64,000 nt of DNA from Qipengyuania sp. HL-TH1. Its GTDB lineage: Bacteria; Pseudomonadota; Alphaproteobacteria; Sphingomonadales; Sphingomonadaceae. Numbering within the stretch: position 1 is the stretch's first letter; every line of letters starts with the position of its first letter. Positions 42,985-59,019 of this stretch are shown here, piece after piece. The DNA lies in NCBI RefSeq assembly GCF_036365825.1, contig NZ_CP142675.1, forward strand, positions 2,488,501-2,552,500. Direction: 5' to 3'. The notes beneath the pieces were generated by a model that worked only from the letters and a program-made list of their open reading frames with translations, ran no database searches and was not told where the DNA came from. The translations under genes and the position numbers were made by a program.

Positions 42985-42994
42985 GAGACCGATC

Positions 42995-43339
42995 ATGAAA
43001 CGCGCTTCAATCATATTTTCAGCAGTTATTGCCCTCGGAGCAGGTGGCCTCGGTACGATGGCTCTGTTGCCGACTTCCGGAGCTCTGGCAGGTTCGGAAG
43101 CTACGCCCCAAAATGCCCTTGAACGTCAGACATTTGCGATTGAAAACATGACCTGTGCGACGTGCCCGATCACTGTCAAGAAGGCCATGAGCAATGTCGA
43201 CGGTGTCTCCTCGGTTGAGGTTGATTTCGAATCGAAGACCGCGACAGTCCTGTTCGATCCGCGCCAAACAACGATCTCTGCGATCGCCGCAGCTTCAACC
43301 AACGCCGGATATCCTGCGCGTTCGACCGCATCGCGCTAA
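42995..43339 (+). CDS. merP: Periplasmic mercury-binding protein MerP
   Basis: 114 residues. A signal peptide (about 1-32) is followed by a heavy-metal-associated domain with the motif NMTCATCPITVKKAM (Cys54 and Cys57), which binds Hg(II) in the periplasm and hands it to MerT or MerF. ATG at 42995 has AGGAGA upstream. Ten bases after merT. Confidence 0.94.
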   Translation: MKRASIIFSAVIALGAGGLGTMALLPTSGALAGSEATPQNALERQTFAIENMTCATCPITVKKAMSNVDGVSSVEVDFESKTATVLFDPRQTTISAIAAASTNAGYPARSTASR

Positions 43340-43341
43340 AG

Positions 43342-43560
43342 GTGAACGATCGAACACTGCTGCGTCTAGGTATTGTCGGCACAATCATTGTCGCTCTGTG
43401 CTGCTTCACACCGGTGTTGGTAATTCTAGTAGCTGCGGTCGGTCTGTCCGCGCTGACGGGTTATCTGGATTATGTGCTGATACCGGCGCTGCTCATATTT
43501 CTTGGACTTACTGTTTATGCAGTTCGTCGGCGCAGTAAGCGCTCCGACACTGCTGTTTGA
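43342..43560 (+). CDS. merF: Mercury transporter MerF, shortened C-terminus
   Basis: 72 residues with two membrane helices. Cys20-Cys21 in the first helix (VALCCFTPVLVIL) and SALTGYLDYVLIPALLIFLGLTVYA match MerF closely. Other MerF proteins carry a second Cys pair (ACCTP) in a C-terminal tail of about ten more residues; here the protein ends RRRSKRSDTAV and that pair is absent. A similar CCTP occurs at the N-terminus of the MerA encoded just downstream. GTG start at 43342, two bases after merP. Confidence 0.92.
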   Translation: MNDRTLLRLGIVGTIIVALCCFTPVLVILVAAVGLSALTGYLDYVLIPALLIFLGLTVYAVRRRSKRSDTAV

Positions 43561-43571
43561 TTGGAAGCTTA

Positions 43572-44999
43572 ATGAATGATTGTTGCACGCCAGGTAGTGG
43601 CAGGCGCTACGACCTTGTCGTCGTGGGTGCTGGGTCGGCAGGGTTTTCCGCCGCTATCACGGCTGCCGGTGCGGGAGCCAAGGTTGCTTTGATAGGGCAT
43701 GGCACGATCGGCGGCACCTGTGTCAATGTCGGCTGTGTCCCATCCAAGGCAATGATACGCGCGGCAGAGTCAATCCATGGCGCCAAATCGGCGAACCGCT
43801 TTCCCGGTGTTACCGGCAGCGCCAAAGTCAAGAATTGGACCCAGCTGATCGCCGCGAAGGACAATCTCGTTGAGGGGTTGCGACAAAAAAAATATGCCGA
43901 TCTGCTGCCCGAATATGAAAATATCAACTATTTCGATGAGGGGTCGGCGCGCGTTGTCGAAGGCGGCGTTCAAATTGGCGAGCGCGTTATTGTGGCTCCA
44001 AAAATCATTGTCGCAACGGGCGGTCGCCCCTCGCTCCCTCCGATCAAGGGAATTGACGAGGTTTCCACACTCGACAGCACCGAACTGCTCGACCTGAAAA
44101 CATTACCAAAAAGTCTGATCTTCATCGGCGCCGGCTATATCGGTTCCGAGCTCGCACTGATGATGGCGAGAATGGGTGTCGAAGTAACGATTATCTGCCG
44201 TTCACGCCTATTACCGGGCGCCGAGCCGGAGATTTCTGAGGCATTGACTGAATCCTTCCGCGCGGAAGGTGTCGCCATGTATTGCGGAAGCACCTATGAT
44301 GCTTGCCACCAGGATCATTCCGGGGTCACGATCTGTATCGAGCACGAAGGCGAACGGCTCGAACTTACCGCCGAAAGCCTTGCAGTTATGACCGGTCGGA
44401 CACCAAACACGGAGGGGTTAGGTCTCGAGAATGCCGGCGTTGCGCTCGATAGTCGCGGCGCGATTGTCGTTGGCGACAATATGCAAACCAGCAACCCCGC
44501 TATCTATGCCGCAGGCGATGTGACCAACCGCGACCAGTTTGTCTATATGGCGGCGTACGGTGCTAAGCTTGCGGCCAGGAATGCTGTCGCATCGGGGGCG
44601 GAAGTCTATGACAAATCGGCAATGCCATGGGTCGTCTTTACAGATCCCCAAGTTGCGGGCGTCGGCTTGAGTGAAGCCGAGGCGCGGCAAGCCGGCTTTG
44701 AAGTAAAGACTTCAATTGTCCCGTTAGACCAAGTGCCTCGTGCATTGGCTGCGCGCGATACGAGGGGCCTGATCAAGCTCGTCGCCGACAGGAACACCGA
44801 CAAGTTACTCGGCGGCCAGATCATGGCACCCGAAGGTTCGGACAGCATCCAGACACTGGCTATGGCCCTTAAATTCGAGATGACGGCAAAGGCATTGGGA
44901 GAAACGATTTTTCCGTATCTGACAACTGTCGAAGGTTTAAAACTTGCGGCCCAGACATTCGACAAGGACGTAACCAAACTTTCGTGCTGTGCGGGCTAA
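43572..44999 (+). CDS. merA: Mercuric reductase MerA, without N-terminal HMA domain
   Basis: 475 residues. An FAD- and NADPH-dependent enzyme of the cytosol that reduces Hg(II) to Hg(0). The redox-active pair is Cys50 and Cys55 in GGTCVNVGCVPSKA; the C-terminal pair Cys472-Cys473 (LSCCAG) carries Hg(II) to the active site of the dimer partner. The NmerA (HMA) domain of long MerA forms is absent; instead there is a short leader MNDCCTPGSG with Cys4-Cys5. ATG at 43572 has GGAAG upstream. It follows merF by 11 bases. Confidence 0.95.
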   Translation: MNDCCTPGSGRRYDLVVVGAGSAGFSAAITAAGAGAKVALIGHGTIGGTCVNVGCVPSKAMIRAAESIHGAKSANRFPGVTGSAKVKNWTQLIAAKDNLVEGLRQKKYADLLPEYENINYFDEGSARVVEGGVQIGERVIVAPKIIVATGGRPSLPPIKGIDEVSTLDSTELLDLKTLPKSLIFIGAGYIGSELALMMARMGVEVTIICRSRLLPGAEPEISEALTESFRAEGVAMYCGSTYDACHQDHSGVTICIEHEGERLELTAESLAVMTGRTPNTEGLGLENAGVALDSRGAIVVGDNMQTSNPAIYAAGDVTNRDQFVYMAAYGAKLAARNAVASGAEVYDKSAMPWVVFTDPQVAGVGLSEAEARQAGFEVKTSIVPLDQVPRALAARDTRGLIKLVADRNTDKLLGGQIMAPEGSDSIQTLAMALKFEMTAKALGETIFPYLTTVEGLKLAAQTFDKDVTKLSCCAG

Positions 45000-45038
45000 C
45001 AAAAGTTAGCCGAGAAGAACTATAGAGAGGCAAGTGTA

Positions 45039-45413
45039 GTGAACGTTAAAATTTGCCCGAGCTGCGGATGTTCTTTGGTGCGGCTTGGAATTGCCGAAGT
45101 TCAGGCGGTACAACTTGACCATGCTGGGTCTACGTATTTTTTCTGTTGCCAGGGATGCGCCGATATTTTCCAAGAACAGCCCGATCATTTTGTCGAAGAG
45201 GTTAAGGACATGCATGTTTGCCCTTCATGCCTTGCTGAAAAACCATCCGCCTACACGGTTCCTGTAGCGCATAATGGACAGGAACTTCGGTTCTGTCGCT
45301 GCCCCCATTGCGCAGAGGTTTTTGCAAAAGACCCGGACTTCTATCTCGATCGCTTGACCGGAAAAACTGACTTCAAGGGCCTGTTTAGTGAGTCAGGATC
45401 GGCATGTTGTTAG
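45039..45413 (+). CDS. Double TRASH/YHS-like cysteine-rich metal-binding protein in the mer operon
   Basis: 124 residues, with 15 Cys. Two treble-clef-like units of the TRASH type are in tandem. Unit 1 (about 6-53) has CPSCGC (Cys6, 9, 11), FFCCQGC (Cys36, 37, 40), Phe44 and Pro48. Unit 2 (about 61-103) has CPSC (61, 64), FCRCPHC (86, 88, 91), Phe95 and Pro99. The protein ends with Cys123-Cys124, as MerA does. TRASH units bind soft metals and serve as sensors or chaperones; here a cytoplasmic Hg(II) carrier is a reasonable guess from position, 40 bases after merA. GTG start at 45039 with AGAGAGG upstream. No mer name is known to me for it. Confidence 0.75.
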   Translation: MNVKICPSCGCSLVRLGIAEVQAVQLDHAGSTYFFCCQGCADIFQEQPDHFVEEVKDMHVCPSCLAEKPSAYTVPVAHNGQELRFCRCPHCAEVFAKDPDFYLDRLTGKTDFKGLFSESGSACC

Positions 45414-45518
45414 CTCAATTCCAAGACAGCGGCGTGAGGCGTTCGAACCAACGCAGTCTTTGCTCACCCCGATCTTAGCACTCTAGGCCGACGACAAAGA
45501 TTAAGGAAAACCACTGCG

Positions 45519-46820
45519 ATGACAGATTCCATTCGAATATCCAGCCAGCAGCAATCCCGATTGGAGATAGTGTTCGATCATTTGGAAGCCTCGGAAGATG
45601 CTCGGCGAAGATTGGCGCAACCCAAACAGACCATCACCGTGAACATTCCAGTGCGAATGGATGACGGTTCACTAAAAGTAGTTCAAGGCTGGCGCGTTCA
45701 ATATGATGACACGCGCGGCCCGAGCAAAGGTGGGATCCGGTTCCATGAGGACGTTACAGCCAAAGAAGTGACCGCGCTAAGTTTCTGGATGACCATCAAA
45801 TGTGCTGTCGTCGATTTGCCCTTTGGTGGCGCAAAGGGCGGTGTTTGTGTCGATCCGAAGACTTTGTCTCGGCTCGAACTGGAGCAGCTGTCTCGCGGTT
45901 ATATGCGCGCAGTTTATGATGTTGTTGGGCCTGACCGCGACATACCTGCACCCGACGTCAATACCAATGCGACTGTAATGGGATGGATGGCCGACGAATT
46001 TACTCAGATTGAGCGCCGTCAAGTTCCGGCGGTCATCACAGGAAAACCGTTGGGGCTTGGCGGCTCCCAGGGGCGTGAGGCGGCGACAGGACAAGGCGCG
46101 CTACAGGTTCTGAATATATGGGCCCAGCGAGCAGGAAAGTCGCCGGAAGATCTAACGGTCGCTGTGCAAGGGTTTGGCAACGCAGGATACCATTTCGCCC
46201 GTCTTGCCCATGAAGCAGGATACAAGGTCGTTGCAGTCTCCGATTCGAAGGGAGCCATCTATTCCAACGACGGATTAGATCCCGAACCGATCTGGCGCCA
46301 CAAGCACAAAACGCGTGAGCTTAAAGGTATGGTCTACTGCGACACCTCCGTATGCGAAGAAGCAGACTTCGATCAGCTTACAAATGACGAGCTACTTGAG
46401 CTCGATGTAGATGTGCTGGTGCTGGCCGCCTTGGAAAATGCCATTACTCAAGAAAATGCCGAAGGCGTCAGATCGGCATTAATTCTGGAGATCGCCAATG
46501 GCCCGATCAGCCCGGAAGCCGACTCAATTCTGAGCGACTGCAACATCGAGATCCTGCCCGACGTTCTTGTGAATTCGGGCGGCGTAATCGTTAGCTATCT
46601 GGAATGGGTTCAGAACCGGTCCGGCGATTACTGGGCTGAAGAAGCCGTGGAACACCGATTGGCTGAGCGTCTCGACCGTGAAGCCAAGTCGTGTTTTCAG
46701 CTAGCTGACGATGAAGGCGTTTCAATGCGCATCGCGGCTTATATGCAAGGTATTGGCCGCATTGCCCAAGCGATGGATCATCGCGGATCTCAAGACTTCT
46801 TCAACAGCGCATCCAGCTAG
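45519..46820 (+). CDS. Glu/Leu/Phe/Val dehydrogenase, GDH-like
   Basis: 433 residues, the usual length of a hexameric NAD(P)-dependent glutamate dehydrogenase. Seen are GWRVQYDDTRGPSKGGIRFH, the active-site PFGGAKGGVCVDP with its catalytic Lys, TGKPLGLGGSQGREAATGQG, the nucleotide-binding VQGFGNAGYHFARLAHEAG and SGGVIVSYLEWVQN. It interconverts glutamate with 2-oxoglutarate and ammonia. It lies in the AT-richer cassette after the mer genes, on the same strand. The link to mercury is not obvious; supply of reducing power or glutamate for thiol synthesis is speculation. Confidence 0.92.
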   Translation: MTDSIRISSQQQSRLEIVFDHLEASEDARRRLAQPKQTITVNIPVRMDDGSLKVVQGWRVQYDDTRGPSKGGIRFHEDVTAKEVTALSFWMTIKCAVVDLPFGGAKGGVCVDPKTLSRLELEQLSRGYMRAVYDVVGPDRDIPAPDVNTNATVMGWMADEFTQIERRQVPAVITGKPLGLGGSQGREAATGQGALQVLNIWAQRAGKSPEDLTVAVQGFGNAGYHFARLAHEAGYKVVAVSDSKGAIYSNDGLDPEPIWRHKHKTRELKGMVYCDTSVCEEADFDQLTNDELLELDVDVLVLAALENAITQENAEGVRSALILEIANGPISPEADSILSDCNIEILPDVLVNSGGVIVSYLEWVQNRSGDYWAEEAVEHRLAERLDREAKSCFQLADDEGVSMRIAAYMQGIGRIAQAMDHRGSQDFFNSASS

Positions 46821-46841
46821 ATTCTCCGTGAAGGAATACTT

Positions 46842-48197
46842 ATGAATAAATCTTTCGATCTTATCGTACTCGGCGTCGGAATGGCGGCGGTGAATGCCGC
46901 GAACAAATGCGCCGATGCTGGTTGGTCAGTCGCAGTGGTCGACGAACTTCCCTATGGCGGCACCTGCGCACTGCGCGGCTGCGACCCCAAGAAGATGCTG
47001 CGGCGAGGCGCTGAAATCATCGATAGTGCTCGCCTGATGCAGGGCAAGGGTATTGAACCGAATGATCTCGCGATCAACTGGCCTGATCTCATTGCCTTCG
47101 CCCAGACCTTTACCGGCAGAATGCCTGAGAAGATCGAGGGTGGTCTCGAGAGAAATGGCGTCACCACGCTTCACGGCACGGCGCAATTCGTTGGCGAAGA
47201 CACGATCGAAATCGAGGGGCAAGGGCGGTTTCAAGCCAACCATATCCTGATCGCTACTGGCGCCAAGCCCCGCCCGGTGGATGTTCCAGGTGCCGAACAC
47301 CTCACCAACAGCACCGAATTCATGCGGATGGACGCCCTCCCGAAGCGTATATTGTTTATCGGCGGCGGGTTCGTCTCGTTCGAGTTCGGTCATATCGCTG
47401 CACGAGCTGGCAGCGAGGTGCAGATCATTGATCGCGGTGACAGGCCATTGAAGGCCTTTGACACAAACCTCGTCGAAAAGCTTGTAGCACGAGGTGAGGA
47501 AATTGGGGTGGGATTGCGTCGGCGCACATCGCTGAAATCGATCGCCACTGACGGCGTCGAATTCATCGTCACTGTCGAAAAGAATGGTGAAACCGAAGAC
47601 TTGCACGCCGATCTGGTCGTGCACGGTGCGGGACGCGTGCCTGAAATCGATCGCCTGAACCTGAGCGCTGCCAATATCGAGGCGGGAGACAAGGGAATAG
47701 CAGTCAATGAATATTTGCAGAGCCTGTCCAACCCGAAAATCTACGCCGCAGGCGATGCGGCCAACACGCACGGGCCTCCGTTGACACCTGTCGCAGTATT
47801 CGAAGGCAAGGTCGCTGCCTCCAACATGCTCAAGGGCAATCAGACCAAGCCAGACTATCGCGGCGTGCCCAGCGCTGTGTTTACAATTCCGGAATTAACC
47901 CGCGTCGGAATGCTCGAAGAAGAAGCAGAGGAAGCCGGTTACAATATCCGCGTCGCGGAAAACGACACAGGCAATTGGTATTCCAATCTTCGCGTTGGCG
48001 AGACCTGTGCTGCCACCAGAATTATCATCGATAAAGACACCGACACTATCCTCGGCGCGCATCTGCTTGGACCCGAATACGGGGAGATCATCAATTTCTT
48101 CGGCCTTGCAATGAGATTGTCACTGACAACTCGAGATCTGAAGAAATTGGTCGCGGCCTACCCCTCGGTTGGCTCGGATTTAGGGTCCATGCTGTAA
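46842..48197 (+). CDS. Glutathione-reductase-like FAD/NAD(P) disulfide oxidoreductase
   Basis: 451 residues. The FAD-binding start is VLGVGMAAVNAANKCADAG; the redox pair is Cys42 and Cys47 in GGTCALRGCDPKK; the NAD(P) site is RILFIGGGFVSFEFGHIAARAG; GDAANTH completes the FAD site. The C-terminal active-site motif of glutathione and lipoamide reductases (HPT.SE) is replaced by AYPSVGSDL, so the usual His-Glu base pair is missing. The substrate is therefore unknown. It follows the GDH gene by 21 bases and is the last gene of the cassette. Confidence 0.9.
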   Translation: MNKSFDLIVLGVGMAAVNAANKCADAGWSVAVVDELPYGGTCALRGCDPKKMLRRGAEIIDSARLMQGKGIEPNDLAINWPDLIAFAQTFTGRMPEKIEGGLERNGVTTLHGTAQFVGEDTIEIEGQGRFQANHILIATGAKPRPVDVPGAEHLTNSTEFMRMDALPKRILFIGGGFVSFEFGHIAARAGSEVQIIDRGDRPLKAFDTNLVEKLVARGEEIGVGLRRRTSLKSIATDGVEFIVTVEKNGETEDLHADLVVHGAGRVPEIDRLNLSAANIEAGDKGIAVNEYLQSLSNPKIYAAGDAANTHGPPLTPVAVFEGKVAASNMLKGNQTKPDYRGVPSAVFTIPELTRVGMLEEEAEEAGYNIRVAENDTGNWYSNLRVGETCAATRIIIDKDTDTILGAHLLGPEYGEIINFFGLAMRLSLTTRDLKKLVAAYPSVGSDLGSML

Positions 48198-48351: not shown

Positions 48352-49104
48352 TCATCCCGCATCGCGCCATCGGATGATATCGGAAAACCCGATCAGACCA
48401 TCGAACAGCGCCGAAACGATCAAAGATTGCTTACAGTGAACCTGATAGCGTTCTCGCGCCATTTTGAGATGCTGGATTACTGTTTCGGTCGCAATCCCAA
48501 GGATCATGGCCGTCTCGGCTGAGGTTTTGCCTCGTGCGACCCACAGAAGACATTCGCGCTGCCGATCGCTCAGGACCGGTACCGATTCCTCGGATTGAGC
48601 TGAGCCCAGTCCCAGTGCACAGCTCAGCGCGAGCGTACCGACCATTTCTGCGACCGCAAAGCGACTGTGTGGCAGGTCTCGGTCGGGGCAGACCGCAAAT
48701 GTACACGTTCCGCGCGCAAGACCGGGCAAATGTCGCGGGACAGTGTAGCCATCACCGATTCCGCATTCGCGCCCCACCGCCAGCATCTGGCGATCACCGC
48801 GAGTTAGCGGGATCAGTTCGCCCAGTGAGCCCCACGCAAAGCCGACAAACGACTTGTCGCAGGCTCGCCGGACCGGATCCTGTCCGGCCAGATCGAACCC
48901 GACATACACCTTGGCCCATTCGTCGGGATAATCATGCAGGAGCAAACCGGGAGCCTCGCACGATCCTGAACGCAGCTCGAGGCTCAAGGCGAAGTGGTCG
49001 AAGCCAAGCCGCCGAGAGACTTGCTTCAGCGCCTCGTCGAGTTCCTCGTCTGACTGGACATTGACCAGTTCGGATGCGAATTCCTCCGCGAAATAAGCCT
49101 GCAT
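48352..49104 (-). CDS. luxR: LuxR-family quorum-sensing regulator
   Basis: 250 residues. The autoinducer-binding domain has YPDEWAKVYVGFDLAGQDPVRRACDKSFVGFAW, matching the conserved W-x3-Y and D-P-V positions (Trp63, Tyr67, Asp71, Pro77, Trp91). The C-terminal GerE-type helix-turn-helix is LSDRQRECLLWVARGKTSAETAMILGIATETVIQHLKMA. It would bind the acyl-homoserine lactone made by LuxI. It is on the same strand as luxI and would be directly upstream of it if the mercury cassette were removed. Confidence 0.9.
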   Translation of the reverse strand: MQAYFAEEFASELVNVQSDEELDEALKQVSRRLGFDHFALSLELRSGSCEAPGLLLHDYPDEWAKVYVGFDLAGQDPVRRACDKSFVGFAWGSLGELIPLTRGDRQMLAVGRECGIGDGYTVPRHLPGLARGTCTFAVCPDRDLPHSRFAVAEMVGTLALSCALGLGSAQSEESVPVLSDRQRECLLWVARGKTSAETAMILGIATETVIQHLKMARERYQVHCKQSLIVSALFDGLIGFSDIIRWRDAG

Positions 49105-49383: not shown

Positions 49384-50179
49384 TTAATTCGCACAACGCT
49401 TGCCCCGTGAGGGATTGAGCAATTCACGATAACCCTCAGCCGCCATGCGATGCGCTTCAGCGACGAGACGCTGTGTCTGCCGGCGATGCGATGATGTTTT
49501 CCAGTCGATCGCGCGGCCGACTTTAAGGCCGGGATAGATCAGTGCTTTGGCGACCTCTTGCAATGTCACCTGCTTGGGTGAAGCGTCTTCGAGCAGATCG
49601 AGAATGGCGAGCAGGATGCTCAGCCTGTAGCTTTTGTAAGCAGATGGCTTGAGGAGCCGATGGTGCGCCTTTGTCGCCGCGCCTTCTTTCGACCGGTCGA
49701 ATTCACTGAGAGCTGCTACGCGGACACCAAGATCGGCATCGTCGGGGACGACATAGCCATCAATGCCGGGAGATGGCTCGCGCGCCAACAGGACGCGGTG
49801 ACGATTTCGCGTATCGGAAACCACCATGTGCTGTCCGGCATCGTTCTCGTGCTGGGCAATCACCTTGCACTCAGCCAATGTGCCTCTGATTCCGGCAAGG
49901 TCCCGGGCGCCGCCAGCCACGATAACGACGCTTGCATTGGCATCGCTTCTCCAGATCGCCGGGCTGTCTGTGGCCGAAACACTCGGATCGAACGGGAAAT
50001 TCTAGGCCCCATGACCGAGCCATTCGCCGCGCGGCGGATGGTTTCTTGTCGCCGGTATCGCGCAAATGAAGTCCGGCATATTGATCCTTGTACGCCGGAT
50101 TGCGTCGCAGGAATTCCTGCGCGAAGTCCGAAAAATCGAAGTCGCCTGTACCAGTATCGTCGGCAGATGATCGAGCCAT
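49384..50179 (-). pseudogene. DUF6499-DUF2285 conjugative-element protein, frameshifted
   Basis: Two reading frames together make one protein of about 265 residues. The first (50179 to about 49993) starts at an ATG with AGGAGGTG upstream and encodes a DUF6499-type N-terminus (FAQEFLRRNPAYKDQYAG, ARSWGLEFP). The second (from about 49992 to 49384) continues FDPSVSATDSPAIWRSDANA and ends in a DUF2285 domain (LSILLAILDLLED to TSSHRRQTQRLVAEAHRMAAEGYRELL). One extra base in TTTCCCG at 49993-49998 or so causes the shift. Such proteins are typical of integrative conjugative elements. It may be a true lesion, a sequencing error or, less likely, +1 programmed frameshifting at CCC-G. Confidence 0.72.
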
Positions 50180-50571
50180 AGAGCACCTCCTTTCGGCTCG
50201 GATGGCTAGCGCCGCGGGATAACAGCGGACATTCCAAGCATGTGGAGGAGCCCTCCCCAGTACTAGGCATGTGAGTGCCTTATATCGGCGCGACCGCAAC
50301 GCCGGGCGGGTATCATGCTGCCTCGAAAATGGAGGCACTTGCCCCTTGCAAGCTGCTTTTGTCTTGGGCACATTCGACCCGCGCGGTTTGAAACTCTGGC
50401 GCCGACCGCGTGGATATTTCCGCCAGCCATCATGCACGCCGGTCCGCTCAAGGCCCGGCGGCCCAACCGGTCAAGGGACGTCGATACGTCCTGAACGGCG
50501 GCACAGTTCTGGATCCCGCATTCGGCTTGCGATGAGGAGCCGCCGATTGCGGTTGCCTCCCAGTCCATTGC
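50180..50571. other. 392-base region without a recognised gene
   Basis: It lies between the divergent DUF6499/DUF2285 relic and the ECF sigma gene. Open frames exist on both strands but match nothing I recognise and lack good ribosome-binding sites. It may hold the ECF sigma promoter or remnants of the former element. Confidence 0.5.
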
Positions 50572-51153
50572 ATGAACCAGCTTTCTGCCGACACCCTGCG
50601 AGACGATCATCGACTATCGAGCTCCGCGCTGCGAACCCCGGCACCGCAAGCTCGGGTAAGCTCGCCCTGCCCGCTCGACGCCCTGTACCGCCGAGAGAGC
50701 GCATGCCTGCTTGCCTATTTTTCGCGCTGCGTCGGTCGTGAGCGAGCCCGCGATCTGGTTCAGGACGTTTTCGTGCGCGCTGCGACCAGCCCGCAACTGA
50801 CAGATCTCCGGAACCCGGCAGGATTTCTATTCCGGATCGCTCGCAATCTGCTGGTCGATGAAGCCCGCAGACAGAAATGCCGTATCAAGACGGTGCCACT
50901 GGTCGAAAACACCGATGCGCCGTGCTGCGCCAAGCAGGAAGACAGAATTGAGGTGGAAGAGACGACCGGGCGCTTCGAGGCCGCGTTGGCGCAGTTGCCC
51001 GACAAAACGGCGGGCATCTTCAGGATGAACCGCTTCGAGAAAAAATCCTACCGCCAGATCCACCAAGAGTTGGGCATCGCGCTGCCGACAGTCGATTATC
51101 ACATGATGAAAGCGCTCGCGCATCTTCGCACGGTTTTCGCTGATCGGGTCTGA
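50572..51153 (+). CDS. ECF-family RNA polymerase sigma factor (FecI-like)
   Basis: 193 residues. Region 2 is LDALYRRESACLLAYFSRCVGRERARDLVQDVFVRAAT with NPAGFLFRIARNLLVDEARR; region 4 is ALAQLPDKTAGIFRMNRFEKKSYRQIHQELGIALPTVDYHMMKALAHL. It lies directly upstream of the TonB-dependent receptor of the lasso locus and probably controls it. FecI-type sigmas usually come with a FecR anti-sigma gene; none is seen here. The N-terminal 30 residues are not conserved, so the true start could be later than the ATG at 50572. Confidence 0.88.
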   Translation: MNQLSADTLRDDHRLSSSALRTPAPQARVSSPCPLDALYRRESACLLAYFSRCVGRERARDLVQDVFVRAATSPQLTDLRNPAGFLFRIARNLLVDEARRQKCRIKTVPLVENTDAPCCAKQEDRIEVEETTGRFEAALAQLPDKTAGIFRMNRFEKKSYRQIHQELGIALPTVDYHMMKALAHLRTVFADRV

Positions 51154-51282
51154 ATGCGCGCGACAGATTTACCGCGCAAAGATCAGGCTCTGCAAATTTA
51201 ATTTCATTTGAAACTAAGGTGCTCGTGAATGCCTGCGTCATTCCCTGTGGCGACATAATCGCAACAGATCAGGGAGATGACA

Positions 51283-53640
51283 ATGCAATCGACAATCCGG
51301 ACAATTACGGCGCTCTTGGCAGGAACCGCCCTGGCAGGCTTTTCTTCGCCGCTTCTCGCCCAATCCGCAGGGCCGCCCCAGAGTGAAGTCGATGAAGTGC
51401 AGGACGATCATTCGGATGTCGCCAGCGGGGACAACGCGATCGTCGTTACAGGAACGCGGATCCGGGGCGCGCGGATCATTGGCGATACAATTTCGCTCGA
51501 CCGCGAGGCGATCGTCGAAGCGGGCCAGATCGATCTCGGCGAAGCGATCCGGACACTTCCGCAGAACTTTTCCGGCGGGCAAAATCCAGGTATTGGATCA
51601 GGCGCAGGGTTCGCCAACAGCAACGTAAACTCGGCCTCAAGCGCAAATCTGCGCGGTCTCGGACCAGATGCGACGCTGACACTCCTCAACGGCCACCGGC
51701 TACCCTATGATTCCGCTTTTGCAGGGGTCGACATTTCATCCATCCCGCTCGCGGCGGTCGACCGGATTGAAATCGTTCCGGACGGAGCCTCGGCCCTCTA
51801 CGGTTCAGATGCGGTCGCGGGCGTGGTCAATGTAATCCTTCGCCGCGATTTTGAAGGCATCACGACATCCGCGCAGATCGGCGCAAGCACGGATGGCGGC
51901 AATTTCCGCCAGCAGGCCGATATAGTGGCGGGCACGCGCTGGAGCGGGGGCGGGTTCTTCGTCGCTTACGATTTTGCAAACAATTCGGCGATCGAGGCTG
52001 GCCAGCGCTCCTATGCCAGCTCGCTTGATCCGGAGACCACGCTCTTCCCCTCGCAGCAACGCCATGCCGTTACGCTTTCGGCACATCACGAACTCGCGCC
52101 CGGCCTCGAGGCCAGTATCGACGCGCTTTATTCAAGCCGAAGCTCAACGCTCGTGGCCGCATCATCGGCATTTCGATCGGAAGCCGATCCGGAGGTGGAA
52201 TCCTATACGCTCGCCCCGTCACTGAAATTCGACGTCGCAGGAGACTGGCAGGCAACAGTGCTGGGAGTGTTCGGCCGCGACCGGACGCACTACCGAACCG
52301 CCTTCGCGCTGCAGGACGGGTCGTCGAGCGTGACCGAGGGATGTTTTTGCAATGAGGTTTTCTCACTCGAAGCGGGTCTGGAGGGTCCGCTGTTCACGCT
52401 TCCCGGAGGCGAGGCGCGTCTGGCTGTCGGCGGGGGTCTGCGAAACAACACGCTCGATTTCAGCCGCAGCGAAGCGGGAAATTTACTGATCGCTTTCGAC
52501 AAGACGCAGCGCGCGCGTTTCGCCTATGGCGAACTCTTCCTGCCGGTCGTTTCGCCGCGTAATGCAATCGATGGAGTCGCCGAGCTGACCCTTTCGGCGG
52601 CGGCGCGTCACGAAGATTATCCAGGCCTCGATCAACAGACGACGCCGCGCTTTGGTTTGAGCTACACACCGGTCGAAGGGCTGACGTTGCGCGGCAGCTG
52701 GGCGCGCTCGTTCAAGGCTCCGACCCTCTTTCAGCGTTTCATACCCTACCAGACCATTCTGCTGCCAGCGGCCGTATTCGGCGCCGGAACGGGGTCCGAC
52801 ACGGTGTTTTTCACAAGCGGCGGTAATCCGGACGTGACATCGGAACGCGCGCGCAGCTGGACCGCGGGTGTGGAACTGCAGCCGGTCGCCATTCCCGAAC
52901 TGACGTTTTCGGCCACCTGGTACGACATTCGCTATCAAGACCGGGTGGTGCGACCTATTGCGGGCTCGATTGCGGCTGCTTTCCGCGACCCGGGGTTTGC
53001 AAACCTGATCGATTTCTCTCCCGATCCGACAACTTTATCCGAGCTCATTGCTGGATCGCTATTCGGTCTCGAAAACTTCTCGGGCTCCCCCTACGATCCC
53101 GCCAATGTTGCCGCCTTTGTCGACAACCGGAACAGAAACGTTGCGGTTTGGGCCATCGAAGGCGTGGATGCGAGGATCGCCTGGAACCAGAACCTGGGCG
53201 ACGAACAGTCACTTTCCTTCGATCTCTCGGGCAGTTTTCTCGATAGCCAGCAACAGGTCACGCCCGATCTGCCCGAGGTTCAGCTCGCCGGAACGGTTTT
53301 CAATCCACCACGCTACCGTGCGCGAGGTACGGCACGCTATCAGTCTGGCGGGTTCGCGGCCAATATCGCCGCCAACTATATCGGCGCGCTGCGCGACCGC
53401 CGCTTCGAGGAAGAGCGCCGCCTTTCGCCCAGCGCCACGGTCGATCTCGGCCTGAGCTATGAAATTGTTCGCGGTGAGGGCCGCGAACCAGGCCTCGAAA
53501 TCTCGCTCACGATCCAGAACCTGTTCGACGACGAACCCGAAACGCTCGGCCAGACTGGGCCGACCGACACACCCTATGATTCAACCAATTATTCGCCGAT
53601 CGGGCGGTTCGTCACCTTCGGCATCCGGAGGCACTGGTGA
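51283..53640 (+). CDS. TonB-dependent outer-membrane receptor of the lasso locus
   Basis: 785 residues. A signal peptide (about 1-28) is followed directly by a plug domain (DNAIVVTGTRIRGARIIGDTISLDREAI, LRGLGPDATLTLLNGHRLP, IEIVPDGASALYGSDAVAGVVNVILRRDF) and a 22-strand barrel ending in a C-terminal aromatic strand (FVTFGIRRHW). No STN signalling domain is seen. It probably imports the lasso peptide, or a metal it may carry, across the outer membrane. ATG at 51283 is preferred because AGGGAG is six bases upstream; another ATG is six bases earlier. The isopeptidase GTG start overlaps its stop (GTGA at 53637-53640). Confidence 0.92.
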   Translation: MQSTIRTITALLAGTALAGFSSPLLAQSAGPPQSEVDEVQDDHSDVASGDNAIVVTGTRIRGARIIGDTISLDREAIVEAGQIDLGEAIRTLPQNFSGGQNPGIGSGAGFANSNVNSASSANLRGLGPDATLTLLNGHRLPYDSAFAGVDISSIPLAAVDRIEIVPDGASALYGSDAVAGVVNVILRRDFEGITTSAQIGASTDGGNFRQQADIVAGTRWSGGGFFVAYDFANNSAIEAGQRSYASSLDPETTLFPSQQRHAVTLSAHHELAPGLEASIDALYSSRSSTLVAASSAFRSEADPEVESYTLAPSLKFDVAGDWQATVLGVFGRDRTHYRTAFALQDGSSSVTEGCFCNEVFSLEAGLEGPLFTLPGGEARLAVGGGLRNNTLDFSRSEAGNLLIAFDKTQRARFAYGELFLPVVSPRNAIDGVAELTLSAAARHEDYPGLDQQTTPRFGLSYTPVEGLTLRGSWARSFKAPTLFQRFIPYQTILLPAAVFGAGTGSDTVFFTSGGNPDVTSERARSWTAGVELQPVAIPELTFSATWYDIRYQDRVVRPIAGSIAAAFRDPGFANLIDFSPDPTTLSELIAGSLFGLENFSGSPYDPANVAAFVDNRNRNVAVWAIEGVDARIAWNQNLGDEQSLSFDLSGSFLDSQQQVTPDLPEVQLAGTVFNPPRYRARGTARYQSGGFAANIAANYIGALRDRRFEEERRLSPSATVDLGLSYEIVRGEGREPGLEISLTIQNLFDDEPETLGQTGPTDTPYDSTNYSPIGRFVTFGIRRHW

Positions 53641-55787
53641 CAATCATACTGCTTGCCGCCGCTCTTTCGCAGACTATCGTGCCGACGGCATATATCGATC
53701 CTGGCGACCAGGACCCGTGTGCTTTGTTCGATGAAACGCCGAGCAGCGCGCAAGCGCAAAGATCGGCATTCACGCTCGACGACCAGGTCCGGATTGCGGA
53801 CATCGGCAGGACAGCTCCGACCGGCGCGCCTTCGGCGTTCGAAATCTCGCCCGATGGCGAACGGATCGCTTTTGTTGTGAAGCGCGCAAACCCGCAAGCC
53901 AATGCGTATTGCCTGAGGCTCATGGTGACCACGATGGATGGAAGCGAGACTGAAACCGAAATCGACAGGGGCGGTGAGTTTATCCGGGATGACTTTCCGC
54001 TCCGCGATTTTCCGACGATCATGGGTGGATGGGACAGGCCCAATGCGCCCCGCTGGTCTCCTGACGGCGCACGCATCGGCTATCTCAAGCGCATCGATGG
54101 TTCGACGCAGGTTTGGATTGCCGATCCAGCAGGCGGAAATCCAACGCATCGGGCAACGGCCATGCCCGACGATGTCGACCGCTTTGCCTGGACGGCTGAC
54201 GGCAATGGCCTCATCGTGCAAACACGTCCGGGCATTCGCCAGCAGGCAGAAGCGATTGCGCAAGAGGCTGCGCGAGGCTTCCTGTTTGACGATCGCTTCT
54301 CCCCGCAATTTGCCGACCGCCCGATCCCGACTGGTGAGATTGCCCCGGAATATGTCTTCGTGGCCCTCGGCGATGGCAGCGTCCGTCCGGCGACAGCCAG
54401 CGAGGCCGAGCTTCTCGTTGCCCACCGGCCTGCCACTCTGCCTGCGCAAGCACGCGAATATGCCGCAGGGCCGGATGGATATGCGGCGTGGCTTGAACCC
54501 AAGCATCCCGACCGGCTGATAAGTCCATCGCGCATCGCAGTGATGCAGCCCGGCGGCAGCCGGATCTCCTGCGATGCGGAGGCGTGCGAAGGGATCCGCC
54601 AACTGTGGTGGACAACCGCAGGCCAGACATTGCTTGCCCTCCAGGGAACGGGCTGGGCGAACAGCCAGATGGCGATCCTGCGCTGGGATATGGAGGAGGG
54701 CCAGCCCCGTTCGCTGCTGACAACCGATGACGTTCTGATCGGGTGCAGCCCTTTTGCAAACGAACTGATCTGCGCGCGCGAAGGGGCTGCGAGGCCCCGG
54801 CGCATCGTTGCCATCGATATCCGAACGGGCGCCGAGCGGGTGGTCTACGATCCCAACCCAGACCTGGCGAACGCAGTTTTCGGAACCGTACAGCGGCTCC
54901 GGTTTCGCAATGCATATGGTTCGGAAAGCTTCGCCGATCTTGTTCTGCCGCCCGATCACAGACCGGGGCAGCAACACCCATTGGTGGTCGTGCAATACAC
55001 CAGTGACGGCTTCCTGCGCGGCGGGACCGGCGACGAAGTGCCGATCCACCCGCTGGCAAACCGCGGCTTTGCTGTGCTCAGTTTTGATCGCCCGACCTTC
55101 TCGGCTGCAGCGCTCACCGCAACGAGTGAAGAGGAGCTTGTCCGCGCCAACCGCGCCGACTGGATCGACCGCCGCAGAGTGCAGTCGTCCCTGGAGATCG
55201 CGCTCGAGCTCGCCATCGAAACGGGTGCGGTCGATGCCGGGAGGATGGGCATCAGCGGATTCAGCGACGGCGGATCAACAGTGCAGTGGGCTCTTATCAA
55301 CTCCGACCTGTTCCAAGTGGCCTCTATGGGCTCATGCTGCGAAGATATGTATTCCTATCCGACGGCAGCCGGGCCCCGGTTTACAGACTTCGTTCGCGCG
55401 ATGGGCTACCGCCACTTCGAGGCCGGGACCGAAGAATTCTGGAGACCCATGTCGCTCATCCTCAATGTCGACACGGTAGATGTGCCGATCCTCATCCAGA
55501 CTGGCGACAGCGAATATGAAGGCGGCCTCGATGTGATAGAAACCTATTCGCATCGCGGGCGGGCCATCGAACTCTACGTGCTGGAGAACGAAACGCATGT
55601 GAAATGGCAGCCCGCCCACCGGCAGGCGATCTACGAGCGATCGACCGAATGGTTCGAATTCTGGCTGATGGATCGTATCAACTGCGATCCGGCACGGGTG
55701 CAGCAATACCGGCGGTGGAGCGAGATGGAAGGCGCCCCCTCTTCCGAAGAGTTGAAATGTTTCGACGGGCAATCCTTATTGCCATGA
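53637..55787 (+). CDS. Lasso-peptide isopeptidase (AtxE-like prolyl oligopeptidase family)
   Basis: 716 residues. A short hydrophobic start may be a signal peptide. The first 400 or so residues form a beta-propeller-like domain (IADIGRTAPTGAPSAFEISPDGERIAFVVKR); the C-terminal alpha/beta-hydrolase domain has Ser543 (GISGFSDGGS), Asp624 (QTGDSEY) and His654 (ENETHVKW). Enzymes of this type in Asticcacaulis (AtxE1/2) open the macrolactam of imported lasso peptides. It is translationally coupled to the receptor gene and converges on the cyclase gene with a 12-base overlap. A general serine peptidase is the alternative, but the setting argues against it. Confidence 0.9.
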   Translation: MTIILLAAALSQTIVPTAYIDPGDQDPCALFDETPSSAQAQRSAFTLDDQVRIADIGRTAPTGAPSAFEISPDGERIAFVVKRANPQANAYCLRLMVTTMDGSETETEIDRGGEFIRDDFPLRDFPTIMGGWDRPNAPRWSPDGARIGYLKRIDGSTQVWIADPAGGNPTHRATAMPDDVDRFAWTADGNGLIVQTRPGIRQQAEAIAQEAARGFLFDDRFSPQFADRPIPTGEIAPEYVFVALGDGSVRPATASEAELLVAHRPATLPAQAREYAAGPDGYAAWLEPKHPDRLISPSRIAVMQPGGSRISCDAEACEGIRQLWWTTAGQTLLALQGTGWANSQMAILRWDMEEGQPRSLLTTDDVLIGCSPFANELICAREGAARPRRIVAIDIRTGAERVVYDPNPDLANAVFGTVQRLRFRNAYGSESFADLVLPPDHRPGQQHPLVVVQYTSDGFLRGGTGDEVPIHPLANRGFAVLSFDRPTFSAAALTATSEEELVRANRADWIDRRRVQSSLEIALELAIETGAVDAGRMGISGFSDGGSTVQWALINSDLFQVASMGSCCEDMYSYPTAAGPRFTDFVRAMGYRHFEAGTEEFWRPMSLILNVDTVDVPILIQTGDSEYEGGLDVIETYSHRGRAIELYVLENETHVKWQPAHRQAIYERSTEWFEFWLMDRINCDPARVQQYRRWSEMEGAPSSEELKCFDGQSLLP

Positions 55788-57497
55788 CCGGGTCCAGGTT
55801 TCGGCCTCGGCCAGATCCAGAAGCCGGTAGATGGTCGATCCATCGAGCGACGTATCGAGTTCAAATGCGGCTTCAACACTTGCGCGGTCGAGCAATCCAT
55901 TCCGTGCAATCAGGCCATCGAGCAACAATTCGCGAAGGGCGCTTCGATGGTGGTGGAACGCGAGGCGGATGAAGCTGTCTGGTCCTGATTTGGAGGTGCG
56001 TGCCAACAGGCTCGGCGGAAGGTCAGCGGCAAAAGCGTCGCGCGCGAGCGCACGATTGCGACCGCCTTTGGCCCAAAGCCATGTGGGGATGTTCAGGCAC
56101 AATTCGAGCAAAGGCTGGCTCATCAGTGGTGAGAAGCGTTCAGGCCCGATGCCAAGCCCGTGAACATGGTGCTGGGCGCGCATAATCAGGGCAAGATGAT
56201 CGTGTTTCCCCCCATGGCGCCCCACATCGATATCGACCCAGGGTGTTACGGGGTCCAGCGGCTCATCCGATGCAAGATGATCGGCAAGCAAACGCCGGTC
56301 GCAAGGCCATTCGCCGCATGGGCGGCGCACCAAACGCTTTAGCGTCGCCTTGACCATGGCAGGCAAATCGCAGCCGGTAACCCGGCACATGTCCAGAATG
56401 GTTGCGACCGCACCGCGTCCGGGTCCCTCAACACGCAAGTGGTCGACGACCGGCGCCGCTGAATGAAGAAAGCAGAACAGATTGTCGCCGGCATTGCCAT
56501 CGAAGACGATCTGCGCTCCGAGGTCACCTGCGGCATCGGCGAGCAGCGCATCGATGGTCGACAGAAACGATCTGCGGCTCGGACGCGGAAGACCGGCCGA
56601 GGCGCTGATTTGGGGATCGAAACGCGCAGGATCGTAAATCCGCTCGGCATATTCTGCACCCAGGTGCTCCGCCAGAAGGCGAGCATAGTCCCGCTCGTCG
56701 CCGCTTCTGTCCGCTGTCGCGAGCGTGACGCAGGAAAACGGTTTTTGCGCCCTCGCAAGCGCGGCGCAGACGAGGGAAGAGTCGACGCCGCCCGACACCG
56801 CCACTGCTACGGGCCCAAGCTCGTCGACCCATGCGCCCATGACACGGATCGCCATTTCACGAAGGTGTGATCTCGCTTCATCATAGGAGAGCGATAGTCT
56901 GCCCGGCAGGAACTGCTGCGCGCGCCAGATTGGGAATTCTTCGGAATCGCAAGCAGCCGGATAGGTCAAGGCACCGGGCCGAAGCTCGTCGACACCGACG
57001 AGGCAGGTTTGTCTCGCGCGCAATTCGGAACACATCGAAAAGCGAGCCAGAGAATCCCAAGATATACTCATCCTCTTGCCGCAGGCCTGCTCGAAAAGTT
57101 TCGGATCAGAGGTGAGCACCACATGGGTTGTTGTCACCAGGCGGTAGATCGGAACCAGTCCGGAAGGATCCGGCAGTACAGCCAAATCGCTACGGTCCTG
57201 ATCGGGCAGAATTGCGATATAGGCACCCCAGAAGTTCGCGGCGAGTTTGGCGGCGAGGCATTTCGCAGAGCGAGCACCCACCTCTGGCAACTGAGAAACG
57301 CGATGCGCGGTGTCCCGGGAGAAGAGCGTGCCGATCACACATCCGGCAGAGCTAAGGTCCGCGACACGCGTGTCTCTCGCTGTCCAGAGCCGCGGGATAT
57401 CGCCGCACAGATCCTTCAGGCTTGGCATCGTCTGCAGCCGAGCAGACGCCCCCGATCTGAGGCGCGGCAATGCGAGAGCAAAGCGCAGTGTGGTCAT
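55776..57497 (-). CDS. Lasso-peptide cyclase (C protein, asparagine synthetase-like)
   Basis: 573 residues. The N-terminal 200 or so residues have the degenerate glutamine-amidotransferase fold; the synthetase part has the ATP pyrophosphatase loop SGGVDSSLVCAALARA (about 235-250) and ERDYARLLAEHLGAEY. It adenylates the side-chain carboxylate (Asp or Glu) of the precursor core and joins it to the amino group of residue 1, making the ring. ATG at 57497 overlaps the stop of the B gene as ATGA. Convergent with the isopeptidase gene; the two ends overlap by 12 bases. Confidence 0.92.
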   Translation of the reverse strand: MTTLRFALALPRLRSGASARLQTMPSLKDLCGDIPRLWTARDTRVADLSSAGCVIGTLFSRDTAHRVSQLPEVGARSAKCLAAKLAANFWGAYIAILPDQDRSDLAVLPDPSGLVPIYRLVTTTHVVLTSDPKLFEQACGKRMSISWDSLARFSMCSELRARQTCLVGVDELRPGALTYPAACDSEEFPIWRAQQFLPGRLSLSYDEARSHLREMAIRVMGAWVDELGPVAVAVSGGVDSSLVCAALARAQKPFSCVTLATADRSGDERDYARLLAEHLGAEYAERIYDPARFDPQISASAGLPRPSRRSFLSTIDALLADAAGDLGAQIVFDGNAGDNLFCFLHSAAPVVDHLRVEGPGRGAVATILDMCRVTGCDLPAMVKATLKRLVRRPCGEWPCDRRLLADHLASDEPLDPVTPWVDIDVGRHGGKHDHLALIMRAQHHVHGLGIGPERFSPLMSQPLLELCLNIPTWLWAKGGRNRALARDAFAADLPPSLLARTSKSGPDSFIRLAFHHHRSALRELLLDGLIARNGLLDRASVEAAFELDTSLDGSTIYRLLDLAEAETWTRSWQ

Positions 57498-58099
57498 ACA
57501 ACCAGTATCGGCGTGTACCGCAGCACTTCCTCGGCAGTGTCGTTGAGCACGGCCTCGCCGTGCTGGACCCAGCAATGAGCGCCGAACGGATCGCTTCTGA
57601 CGCCTATAACAATATGGGCGTGGATACCGCGCCGGGCCAGCCGCAGAGATAGCGCAATCGAGCGCGGCAAGCAGCGATCTGCTGCACTGCGCAGGAGCCG
57701 GGCGTGTTCAAAGGCGCGAAGCTCAATAGCCCGCTCGGTCTCACTTGTATCACTGGTCACCAGCGGACCTTTCAGGCGTTTCAGCTCCAGCAGGACTTCG
57801 CGGAAAGAACGCGCTTCAATTCGGCGCTCGACCCGGCGCTGGGTCCAGATTGCCGCAGAAACGCTGGCAAGCCGGAAGGGCCCCTCATGGATCTCGGGCG
57901 AAACAATACGCGGTCTGGTCCATTCAGGTGGGCGCGGGAAAGCGGTAGGTTGATACCAGTCTTGGCCCTCAACCTGGGCGCGAAAAGCCTCCTCGCGAGG
58001 CGCTGACAGCTGAAAGTAGCGATCTTGCGCAATGTCGAGAAAAACGAACCTGCCGCTGCATTCGGCCCAAGCGATATCGCTGTTGCTCAACTCGGTCAC
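57494..58099 (-). CDS. Lasso-peptide B protein: fused leader-recognition (RRE) and leader peptidase
   Basis: 201 residues. Residues about 1-85 form the PqqD-like leader-binding element (ISD-type start, then FVFLDIAQDRYFQLS); residues about 95-201 form the transglutaminase-like cysteine protease with Cys143 (DRCLPRS), His175 (FGAHCWVQHG) and Asp187 (AVLND). B proteins recognise the leader and cut it before cyclisation. The start is set at GTG 58099, where the family's N-terminus begins; a TTG at 58135 lies in the loop of the A-B stem-loop and is less likely. The stop overlaps the cyclase start. Confidence 0.9.
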   Translation of the reverse strand: MTELSNSDIAWAECSGRFVFLDIAQDRYFQLSAPREEAFRAQVEGQDWYQPTAFPRPPEWTRPRIVSPEIHEGPFRLASVSAAIWTQRRVERRIEARSFREVLLELKRLKGPLVTSDTSETERAIELRAFEHARLLRSAADRCLPRSIALSLRLARRGIHAHIVIGVRSDPFGAHCWVQHGEAVLNDTAEEVLRYTPILVV

Positions 58100-58119
58100 G
58101 GCGGTAGGATCGCGGCGAA

Positions 58120-58148
58120 GGGGCGCGCCCTGCAAGAACGCGCGCCCC
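58120..58148 (-). promoter_or_regulatory. Stem-loop between lasso precursor and B gene
   Basis: A 9-bp all-GC stem (58120-58128 with 58140-58148) and an 11-base loop lie 9 bases after the precursor stop and about 20 bases before the B start. There is no T run. Such structures in peptide clusters protect the short precursor mRNA or cut down read-through, so precursor outnumbers enzymes. Confidence 0.75.
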
Positions 58149-58156
58149 CGCGAGGC

Positions 58157-58294
58157 TCAGCCTTCGGCGAGGCCAGTCGCGTAAGACAGCCGGCCGCTGC
58201 TCACATCGATATCGAACAGGGCGTTGCCCTTGGTCTCCACCGAGGCCTTTCCGAGGTCAATGACCTCATTCTCATTATGTTCGAAATCCTTCAT
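58157..58294 (-). CDS. Lasso-peptide precursor (A peptide)
   Basis: A 45-residue peptide, MKDFEHNENEVIDLGKASVE followed by TKG and the rest of the core. Leader residues 1-22 carry the LGKASVET pattern seen in astexin-type leaders, with Thr21 at -2 and Gly23 as core residue 1. The core (23-45, 23 residues) has Asp30 at position 8, placing an 8-residue macrolactam between Gly1 and Asp8; Asp at position 6 would be too small a ring. The tail DVSSGRLSYATGLAEG aligns with the astexin-2 tail (DSVSG...GL). GAGGAG lies seven bases upstream of the ATG. It heads the A-B-C transcript. Confidence 0.88.
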   Translation of the reverse strand: MKDFEHNENEVIDLGKASVETKGNALFDIDVSSGRLSYATGLAEG

Positions 58295-58372
58295 CACTTA
58301 CTCCTCTTTCTGGATTCACGACTCATTGTGTCGCAACCCCAAGACTGAAGCTGAGCAAAGAAAACGGCCAAC

Positions 58373-58389
58373 TTATAATGCCATTATAA
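58373..58389. promoter_or_regulatory. Inverted repeat over the likely promoter of the lasso genes
   Basis: TTATAATG-C-CATTATAA is a perfect 8-bp inverted repeat with a one-base centre, 79 bases upstream of the precursor start. It contains TATAAT-like -10 sequences on both strands; on the - strand TTGCGG at -35 distance (17-18 bp) is present. It could be both promoter and operator. Confidence 0.5.
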
Positions 58390-58858
58390 ATCAGCCCGCA
58401 AATTGCGGATGTGACCGGGCGATGAAAACGCCCGTTGGCAGGCGCATCGATACCTTTAGCGTGCAGCCTGGACATACGCATCGACACCCGGTCGCGAATA
58501 ACAATGGCTCGCGGGTCTTTGATAAATCGTCAAGGTTGGAAGAAAATAGTCAGCAATACCTACTTTTCGGGACTCAAAGCAGTCGGTCATCTTCGGCCCG
58601 ATGCAGTACTTGTTGCCCGGCGCCGCGCTTTGGCGAATTCGCCAATGTAGGTGATGAAGGCGAGCGGGCATTCCGATCCACAATATGGCCAGCTAGTTGT
58701 CGGTAGTCTCGAAGAGATAACGAGCCGTGTCATGCTCCGCCTTTCGCACCGATGTCGCGAATCGCCAGTGCCCTCGCAGGATCGGCGGTGGGACGGGTTG
58801 GTACGCGTCTGGCGAATATCTAGCCGTCCGAGACGACCTGTTCTCCAGCGAAAAAGCG

Positions 58859-58878: not shown

Positions 58879-58944
58879 TGCCGTGAAAATCGCTAGTCAG
58901 CTTCAAGAACAGTTCTTTTAAACCGTTGAGTTGACTACGAAAGA

Positions 58945-59019
58945 TGGAGCGGGCGAGGCGATTCGAACGCCCGACCCCAACCTTGGCAAGGTTGTGCTCT
59001 ACCCCTGAGCTACGCCCGC
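58945..59019 (-). tRNA. tRNA-Gly (anticodon GCC)
   Basis: 75 bases with encoded CCA end (58947-58945). The acceptor stem is GCGGGCG with CGCCCGC, the D-loop has TAGCTCAGGGGTAGAGC, the anticodon loop is CTTGCCAA with anticodon GCC, and the T arm has GTTCGAATC. The 3' end faces the accessory region, the typical side for island insertion. Confidence 0.97.

Follow-up and report, generated by a model that had tools for sequence, protein, structure and literature searches.

A lasso peptide system of the isopeptidase class, probably island-borne, in Qipengyuania, with linked quorum-sensing genes and a receptor operon lacking FecR and STN

The DNA analysed here (the window) is a stretch of 64,000 nucleotides of Qipengyuania sp. 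HL-TH1 (contig NZ_CP142675.1, positions 2,488,501 to 2,552,500), and all coordinates below are those of the window. We hold with good confidence that it carries a lasso peptide system of the isopeptidase class on a probable genomic island, for which a mechanism is proposed; the lasso part of this explanation is near-certain from the gene content. Taken alone, the peptide belongs to a known family and is chemically ordinary. The unusual feature is the wiring, which is open to test: quorum-sensing genes lie in the neighbourhood, and the receptor system is stripped of its sensing contact. The locus contains the following features.

58157-58294, minus strand: A, lasso precursor, 45 amino acids (aa), Asp8 of the core invariant
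58229-58294, minus strand: leader of A
58160-58228, minus strand: core of A, predicted ring Gly1-Asp8
58301-58307, minus strand: Shine-Dalgarno sequence of A, AGAGGAG
57494-58099, minus strand: B, leader peptidase, 201 aa, start placed by inference at GTG 58099
55776-57497, minus strand: C, asparagine-synthetase-like lasso cyclase, 573 aa
53637-55787, plus strand: E, lasso isopeptidase of the AtxE2 family
51277-53640, plus strand: T, TonB-dependent receptor without STN (Plug and beta-barrel domains only)
50572-51153, plus strand: extracytoplasmic function (ECF) sigma factor (Sigma70_r2, r4_2)

By its family matches, A is a genuine lasso precursor of the benenodin/subterisin type. The frame opens with ATG and encodes the leader MKDFEHNENEVIDLGKASVETK followed by the core GNALFDIDVSSGRLSYATGLAEG. 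Two public models catch it above their curated cut-offs, PF24178 with 47.8 bits (cut-off 27) and the benenodin model NF033522 with 43.7 bits (cut-off 33), and B and C follow. This bears out the lasso locus with a short-frame precursor that a first-pass annotation, made from the letters alone, had called, and makes doubtful its description of the precursor as overlooked. A search of ~5.8 billion proteins returned nine homologues (best E 8.9e-20), all of 45 aa and sharing LGxASxET, Gly1 and Asp8. In 13 aligned precursors, Thr21 (the Thr at -2), Gly23 (Gly1) and Asp30 (Asp8) are invariant, in agreement with the LGKASVET leader, Thr at -2, Gly1 and 23-residue core with Asp8 as likely ring closer that had been proposed. 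With Asp8 closing the ring, the tail would begin with VSSG and not, as first given, with DVSSG. Between relatives, synonymous changes prevail (for the core, window against L107: proportions of synonymous and nonsynonymous differences 0.55 and 0.11, respectively). Among the 60 genomes of the genus, ten carry an isopeptidase above cut-off, and the same ten carry a precursor at E≤0.01, above cut-off in nine of them; a conserved precursor thus accompanies the isopeptidase in the relatives, contrary to the refuting condition named in the first-pass annotation.

An acid stands at core position 8 in 51 of the 56 distinct cores of the family. As the regular expression for cores demanded Thr at -2 and an acid at positions 7-9, what carries information in this count is the preference for position 8. 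Ring size 8, which had been taken for a distinguishing feature, is therefore the norm of benenodin/subterisin-type precursors. The window core has acids at positions 6 and 8 and none at 7 or 9, and thus does not fit the nine-residue ring of the astexin-2/-3 type. It ends in Gly (58160-58162), the sole Gly end, whereas 53 of the 56 distinct cores end in Asp or Glu. The cores of L136 and L125 are, we take it, those of sphingopyxin I and subterisin, respectively. Five strings from the precursor, the relatives' leaders and the core were found in no paper of a library that lacks most subscription journals.

B matches PF13471 with 72.6 bits and NF033537 with 77.2 bits (cut-off 33), both scored on the frame starting at 58117. 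Given the start at GTG 58099, the residues Cys143, His175 and Asp187 had been named correctly; in 18 B proteins Cys143 and His175 are invariant and Asp187 is at least 90% conserved. The N-terminus of the AlphaFold model of B (predicted local distance difference test 89.5) consists of three strands and a helix. A PDB sequence search with B gave matches of E 0.17 or worse only, and Foldseek gave nothing at E≤0.001. C matches PF00733 with 93.2 bits and contains the SGGVDSS motif annotated before. The more suitable start is ATG 57497, which overlaps the stop of B.

E scores 781.5 bits with NF033523 (cut-off 400). Its best solved relative is AtxE2 (5txc/5txe), with 439.5 bits to 5txc and homology over residues 44-698 of 716. 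The kinship with astexin-2/-3 suggested earlier thus stands at the level of the cluster, while the precursor is of the benenodin/subterisin type. A, B and C lie on the minus strand; E and T, behind the ECF sigma gene, converge on them from the plus strand, and the 3' ends of E and C overlap by 12 bp. The locus had been called complete at 55776, but the isopeptidase, the receptor and the sigma factor lie beyond that point. Comparison of 90 loci showed the same convergence of A/B-C on E-T in all 77 that have B, C, E and T on record. For a test of coevolution, 60 of the 90 were retained after the removal of 12 in which the regular expression gave no precursor, ten named duplicates and others lacking B, C, E or T. 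Three fragmented loci (including L041, the Q. pacifica copy) and six loci at 5% C distance were then dropped, leaving 51; of two precursors in a locus, the first alone entered the test.

In the proposed mechanism, B would bind the 45-aa precursor and cut after Lys22, and C would activate Asp8 and close the Gly1-Asp8 ring around the tail. The product would have the ring GNALFDID and a 15-residue tail, with an expected [M+2H]2+ of 1148.066, or would occur as shorter C-terminal forms. After export, the peptide would re-enter through the neighbouring receptor T and be linearised by E. From the genes present, it is very likely that a Gly1-Asp8 lasso peptide is made and later opened by its own isopeptidase.

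The regulatory genes next to the receptor include two further features.

51209-51240, plus strand: ECF-type promoter-like element before T, TGAAACTAAGGT-N14-GCGTCA(T)
49384-50470, minus strand: two overlapping frames with RovC_DNA-bd (PF10074, 49384-50001) and Trans_reg_dom (PF20109, 49871-50470)

The sigma gene beside a TonB-dependent receptor gene resembles FecI-FecR-FecA signalling, of which FecR and STN also occur in the majority of the related lasso loci. A sigma/anti-sigma pair with a receptor is reported as 'almost constant' in isopeptidase clusters, though not obligatory (PMC9266682). In the window, however, only the receptor and the sigma factor are present, and no FecR-like anti-sigma gene lies between the sigma gene and T. 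The window belongs to a clade of 12 of the 51 non-redundant loci, which a branch with support 100/99 separates from the rest of the tree under midpoint rooting. A FecR-like open reading frame (ORF) is on record in none of the 12 clade loci, compared with 37 of the 39 others (L095 and L131 have none), and Pfam confirmed FecR in all six loci tested. Similarly, the STN domain of the receptor is found in 0/12 clade loci vs. 37/39 others (the record of L131 ends inside the gene), so that neither of these features of FecA-type signalling is on record in the clade. The gap between the sigma gene and T is 27-106 bp in the clade; elsewhere the sigma gene lies 0.5-1.3 kb from T in 32 loci, and seven loci have no sigma ORF on record. 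The closest relatives of this clade, L144 and L057, retain both. In the simplest reading, FecR and STN, the two halves of the signalling contact, were lost together in one event.

The promoter-like element occurs with at most three mismatches and identical spacing in all 12 clade loci, and at that threshold it is a single site in its own genome. At five mismatches, it was observed in 18 of the 51 loci, compared with 0-2 of 51 after shuffling. We infer that the cluster's own ECF sigma factor probably drives the receptor/isopeptidase operon in the clade. Peptide binding at the receptor would no longer drive T-E, because FecR and STN are both gone. A DUF2285/RovC-type gene adjoins the sigma gene in the eight clade members with a long enough record. 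Its two-frame layout in the window recalls the frameshifted FseA of Mesorhizobium integrative and conjugative elements (ICEs), whereas L035, L036 and L037 have a single frame of 281-316 aa with the RovC domain.

The quorum-sensing genes lie further from the sigma gene on the minus strand.

48352-49104, minus strand: LuxR-type autoinducer-binding regulator (PF03472 92.6 bits, PF00196 40.3 bits)
41254-41976, minus strand: LuxI-type acyl-homoserine lactone (AHL) synthase (PF00765, the only match in the genome)
40391-41344, minus strand: PhyH-family dioxygenase adjoining luxI (PF05721 93.8 bits)
39789-40421, minus strand: GntR-type regulator, stop-to-stop frame (PF00392 58 bits)

Both parts of a LuxR-LuxI unit, an Autoind_bind/GerE regulator and an Autoind_synth enzyme, are thus present in the window. 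Among 397 genomes of the family, luxI is found in 62 of the 69 with a precursor vs. 59 of the 328 others (Fisher p 1.9e-30; precursors counted at E≤0.01, above cut-off in 45 genomes, and 120 of the 121 luxI genomes listed). The gene lies within 20.5 kb of the precursor in 51 of the 69 genomes, where ~1.3 are expected, and within 5 kb in 28. The other 18 comprise seven without a luxI among those listed, six with luxI on another contig and five with luxI at a distance of 27 kb to 1.2 Mb. The fetched records hold luxI in 24 of the 51 non-redundant loci, upstream of A in 20 and beyond the sigma gene in four. All 20 have the order luxR-luxI-phyH-gntR-A-B-C on the strand of A (in L096 ~3 kb further off), and the four-gene module is likewise seen at the other site, past the sigma gene. 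Pfam was used to check the module in L106, L093 and L134, and confirmed PhyH only in L106. In 14 extended regions, picked for a known nearby luxI, the gene was found in all 14, which brings the total to 33 of the 51 loci. Production would probably be tied to cell density through the linked module; as a statistical inference from linkage, we regard density control as evenly poised.

PhyH next to luxI is reported in sphingomonads (PMC4288048), and lasso clusters have been predicted by antiSMASH in several Erythrobacter (PMC9723273). For Q. pacifica NZ-96, of the same genus, one antiSMASH region is reported to contain B2, cyclase, Atxe2-type isopeptidase, receptor and homoserine-lactone synthetase, and this hserlactone/lassopeptide region was likened to that of Citromicrobium JL477 (PMC9318849). 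That report deals with one strain, and its available text contains neither a family-wide linkage nor the loss of FecR and STN; the NZ-96 cluster is L060 of the present analysis. No paper on a family-wide lasso-luxI linkage was found among the titles and abstract starts of the papers listed in searches of the library. The sphingocin cluster of Sphingomonas BPH shares with the window the 45-aa precursor, the A-B-C order, the opposite-strand isopeptidase and receptor and the lack of a transporter; its core differs, and the main text of the report does not contain the words 'quorum' and 'LuxR' (PMC11006600). Benenodin-1 of Asticcacaulis benevestitus likewise has a precursor matched by NF033522, a cognate isopeptidase (BenE; PMC9266682) and a ring reported to be of eight residues (PMC13352647), but the core sequences differ, the window clade has neither anti-sigma gene nor STN, and luxR-luxI-phyH-gntR is linked in the window. 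The isopeptidase AtxE2 of the astexin-2/-3 system (Asticcacaulis excentricus) is homologous to E, and the astexin-3 ring is described as one residue larger than that of a benenodin-1 chimera (PMC9266682).

Nearly all known isopeptidase-class lasso peptides are described as non-antimicrobial (PMC9266682), and their clusters contain the gene of the very enzyme that opens them. For their role, a family-wide tie to AHL quorum sensing provides a concrete regulatory hypothesis. Tentatively, the isopeptidase-class lasso peptides of the Sphingomonadaceae could be an output of AHL quorum sensing that is recaptured and linearised by kin, and the one-event loss of STN and FecR in the clade, with sigma factor and promoter kept, could have made uptake constitutive or density-driven. 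If so, the peptide would act as a density-gated private good or as a second signal. The clade would then offer a natural test of the purpose of the lasso isopeptidase, in which sensing and uptake can be separated by comparison with its neighbours.

Several points weigh against these readings. The NCBIfam models of lasso cyclases (NF033535, NF033561) match C only with scores far short of their cut-offs, and the RRE (peptide-recognition) half expected at the N-terminus of B is hinted at by lasso B1 chains that Foldseek lists over 39-40 columns with prob 0.28-0.63 but E≥2. The linkage counts make no correction for relatedness between genomes, and the limit of 20.5 kb was set by us. In the window itself, a strain-specific insertion separates luxR from luxI. 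The absence of the anti-sigma gene refers to the fetched records, no search elsewhere in the genomes having been made, and the loci in which the promoter motif was counted are also those that yielded it. A test for coevolution of core and receptor was not discriminating, as the core tracks E and T no better than C (51 loci; partial Mantel r of core divergence 0.21 with E given C, 0.18 with T given C and 0.20 with C given T and E).

As a tentative alternative, the peptide may be regarded as a scavenger that binds a nutrient or hydrophobic substrate outside the cell, is recaptured by the receptor and frees its cargo when E opens the ring; such a role would be compatible with density control. The layout of receptor, isopeptidase and sigma factor is likened to siderophore systems (PMC9266682), and a Tn5 insertion in B of the sphingocin cluster is reported to have abolished the use of phenanthrene (PMC11006600). 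However, the word 'complement' is absent from the main text of the latter report, which makes complementation of the mutant doubtful, no ligand is known, and the clade has lost its ligand-sensing parts, which would be odd for inducible uptake. Degradation of polycyclic aromatic hydrocarbons in Croceicoccus is reported to be under quorum-sensing control (PMC7432010). The luxI tie would place this report and the separate one on the Sphingomonas Tn5 mutant in one frame.

The main rival to density control is that luxR-luxI serves a mobile island. The lasso locus probably lies on such an island, judging from the synteny of its borders, which enclose two further features.

38505-39755, plus strand: tyrosine integrase inside the left island edge (PF00589, PF13356)
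58945-59019, minus strand: tRNA-Gly(gcc), at the right synteny border

On the left, synteny with G043 and G007, both without the cluster, ends at 38404; G032 is uninformative there, as its contig ends at this edge. On the right, synteny with five genomes of the genus sets in again at 58941-58944, where tRNA-Gly has its 3' end. Between 40000 and 58941, the window has only two matches to G043, of 60 and 71 bases. Neither G043 nor G007 has the two flanks side by side (G043 has ~425 kb between them), so that rearrangement must have been involved besides insertion of the island. The tRNA-Gly was considered as a simple integration site and rejected, there being no good copy of the tRNA end at the integrase side and the flanks lying so far apart.

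Comparisons between loci suggest that such clusters probably move as units, with assembly contamination as the alternative. The window from 50164 to 58495 is 95.7% identical to L048, a record labelled as a Sphingopyxis metagenome-assembled genome; the former position is the end of the fetched stretch of L048, while the similarity really stops at the latter, and the same limits apply to L049. Over 9-15 kb, records named Erythrobacter, Tsuneonella, Aurantiacibacter and Novosphingobium and two more genomes share another lasso cluster at 98.7-99.9% identity. A lasso cluster with the core GAVGFYIDASGGQLANSPGLLDE is almost unchanged across genera (L036, L052, L053, L055, L114, L115), a sign of very recent transfer unless the assemblies are contaminated. 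In the L118 copy of the transferred cluster, the cyclase is split into two frames (6574-7614, 7602-8315) and appears to be broken.

On such an island, LuxR and the DUF6499/DUF2285-like regulator might control excision by the integrase, with the lasso cluster as passive cargo. Excision is controlled by TraR-FseA in Mesorhizobium ICEs, which are the model for this proposal. It is in keeping with the integrase at the island edge, which also lies beside gntR in L208, L209, L210, L211 and L213, with the two-frame PF20109/PF10074 pair beside luxR, with the near-identical clusters across genera and with the almost complete lack of matches to G043. However, the module stands upstream of A on the same strand in the 20 loci described above, these have no DUF2285 match above 23 bits, and phyH and gntR, which are not obviously needed for excision, travel along in both layouts. 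We consider this proposal unlikely. A role as an antimicrobial, the potential given to such a cluster in an antiSMASH-based paper (PMC9318849), is highly improbable: Pfam, run on a part of the frames from 38.5 to 61.8 kb, gave no match to an ABC transporter family, no immunity gene was present among the scanned frames, and known isopeptidase-class peptides are described as without antimicrobial activity except for the narrow-spectrum astexin-1 (PMC9266682).

Three candidate control elements surround A.

58368-58389, minus strand: inverted repeat TTATAAT-N3-ATTATAAGTTGG, candidate operator upstream of A, conserved in the clade
58319-58334, minus strand: stem-loop of the 5' leader of A, preceding the Shine-Dalgarno sequence
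58120-58148, minus strand: GC-rich hairpin between A and B

The inverted repeat stands 93-95 nt before A, with at most one mismatch in 10 of the 12 clade loci, and occurs in one place only in its own genome at up to three mismatches. A leader stem of at least 5 bp is present in 48 of 50 loci vs. 50% of shuffles. The alignment of 14 leaders retains 98.8% of pair cells and has two pairs changed on both sides; 16 of 500 shuffles reach its covariation score. These comparisons give moderate support to a conserved stem-loop; Rfam returned nothing at E≤1. The Shine-Dalgarno sequence is less accessible in the 50 A leaders than in shuffles (0.239 vs. 0.375). T leaders, intended as a control, gave the same effect (0.172 vs. 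0.328; 33 of 51 with a recognisable Shine-Dalgarno sequence), which led to a control of 34 Shine-Dalgarno-bearing genes that showed no such drop (0.398 vs. 0.418). Pairing between the Shine-Dalgarno sequence and an anti-Shine-Dalgarno segment (P1) in 45 of 50 A leaders vs. 61% of shuffles is suggestive only. A strong GC-rich hairpin between A and B was found in all 15 loci folded, with differing sequences and no shuffle control; in the simplest reading, it would serve message stability and an excess of precursor.

The window and L034 represent two strains of one species. They are near-identical over 53.1-57.7 kb, whereas the flanks differ by ~2% or more. The core alone gave 4.5 synonymous changes in its 23 codons, compared with one in C and none in E. 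Recombination specific to the core, which these counts seemed to show, was rejected, since the map of single-nucleotide polymorphisms has a variable block, 57.8-58.2 kb, beside the near-identical tract (~53.1-57.7 kb) and no effect confined to the core; the tract probably stems from recombination. The insertion between luxR and luxI (42562-46854) is almost absent from G023 of the same species. It encodes a heavy-metal-associated domain, a disulphide oxidoreductase (presumably mercuric-reductase-like), a YHS domain and the greater part of a glutamate dehydrogenase, and L208-L211 have different DNA in its place. In G000, the 3' part of tRNA-Gly(gcc) is duplicated exactly, over 45 bp, at C2:11493-11537 and at C2:3178869-3178913 (L224, L225); ARAGORN calls neither copy a tRNA, and they are likely attachment-site remnants of other elements.

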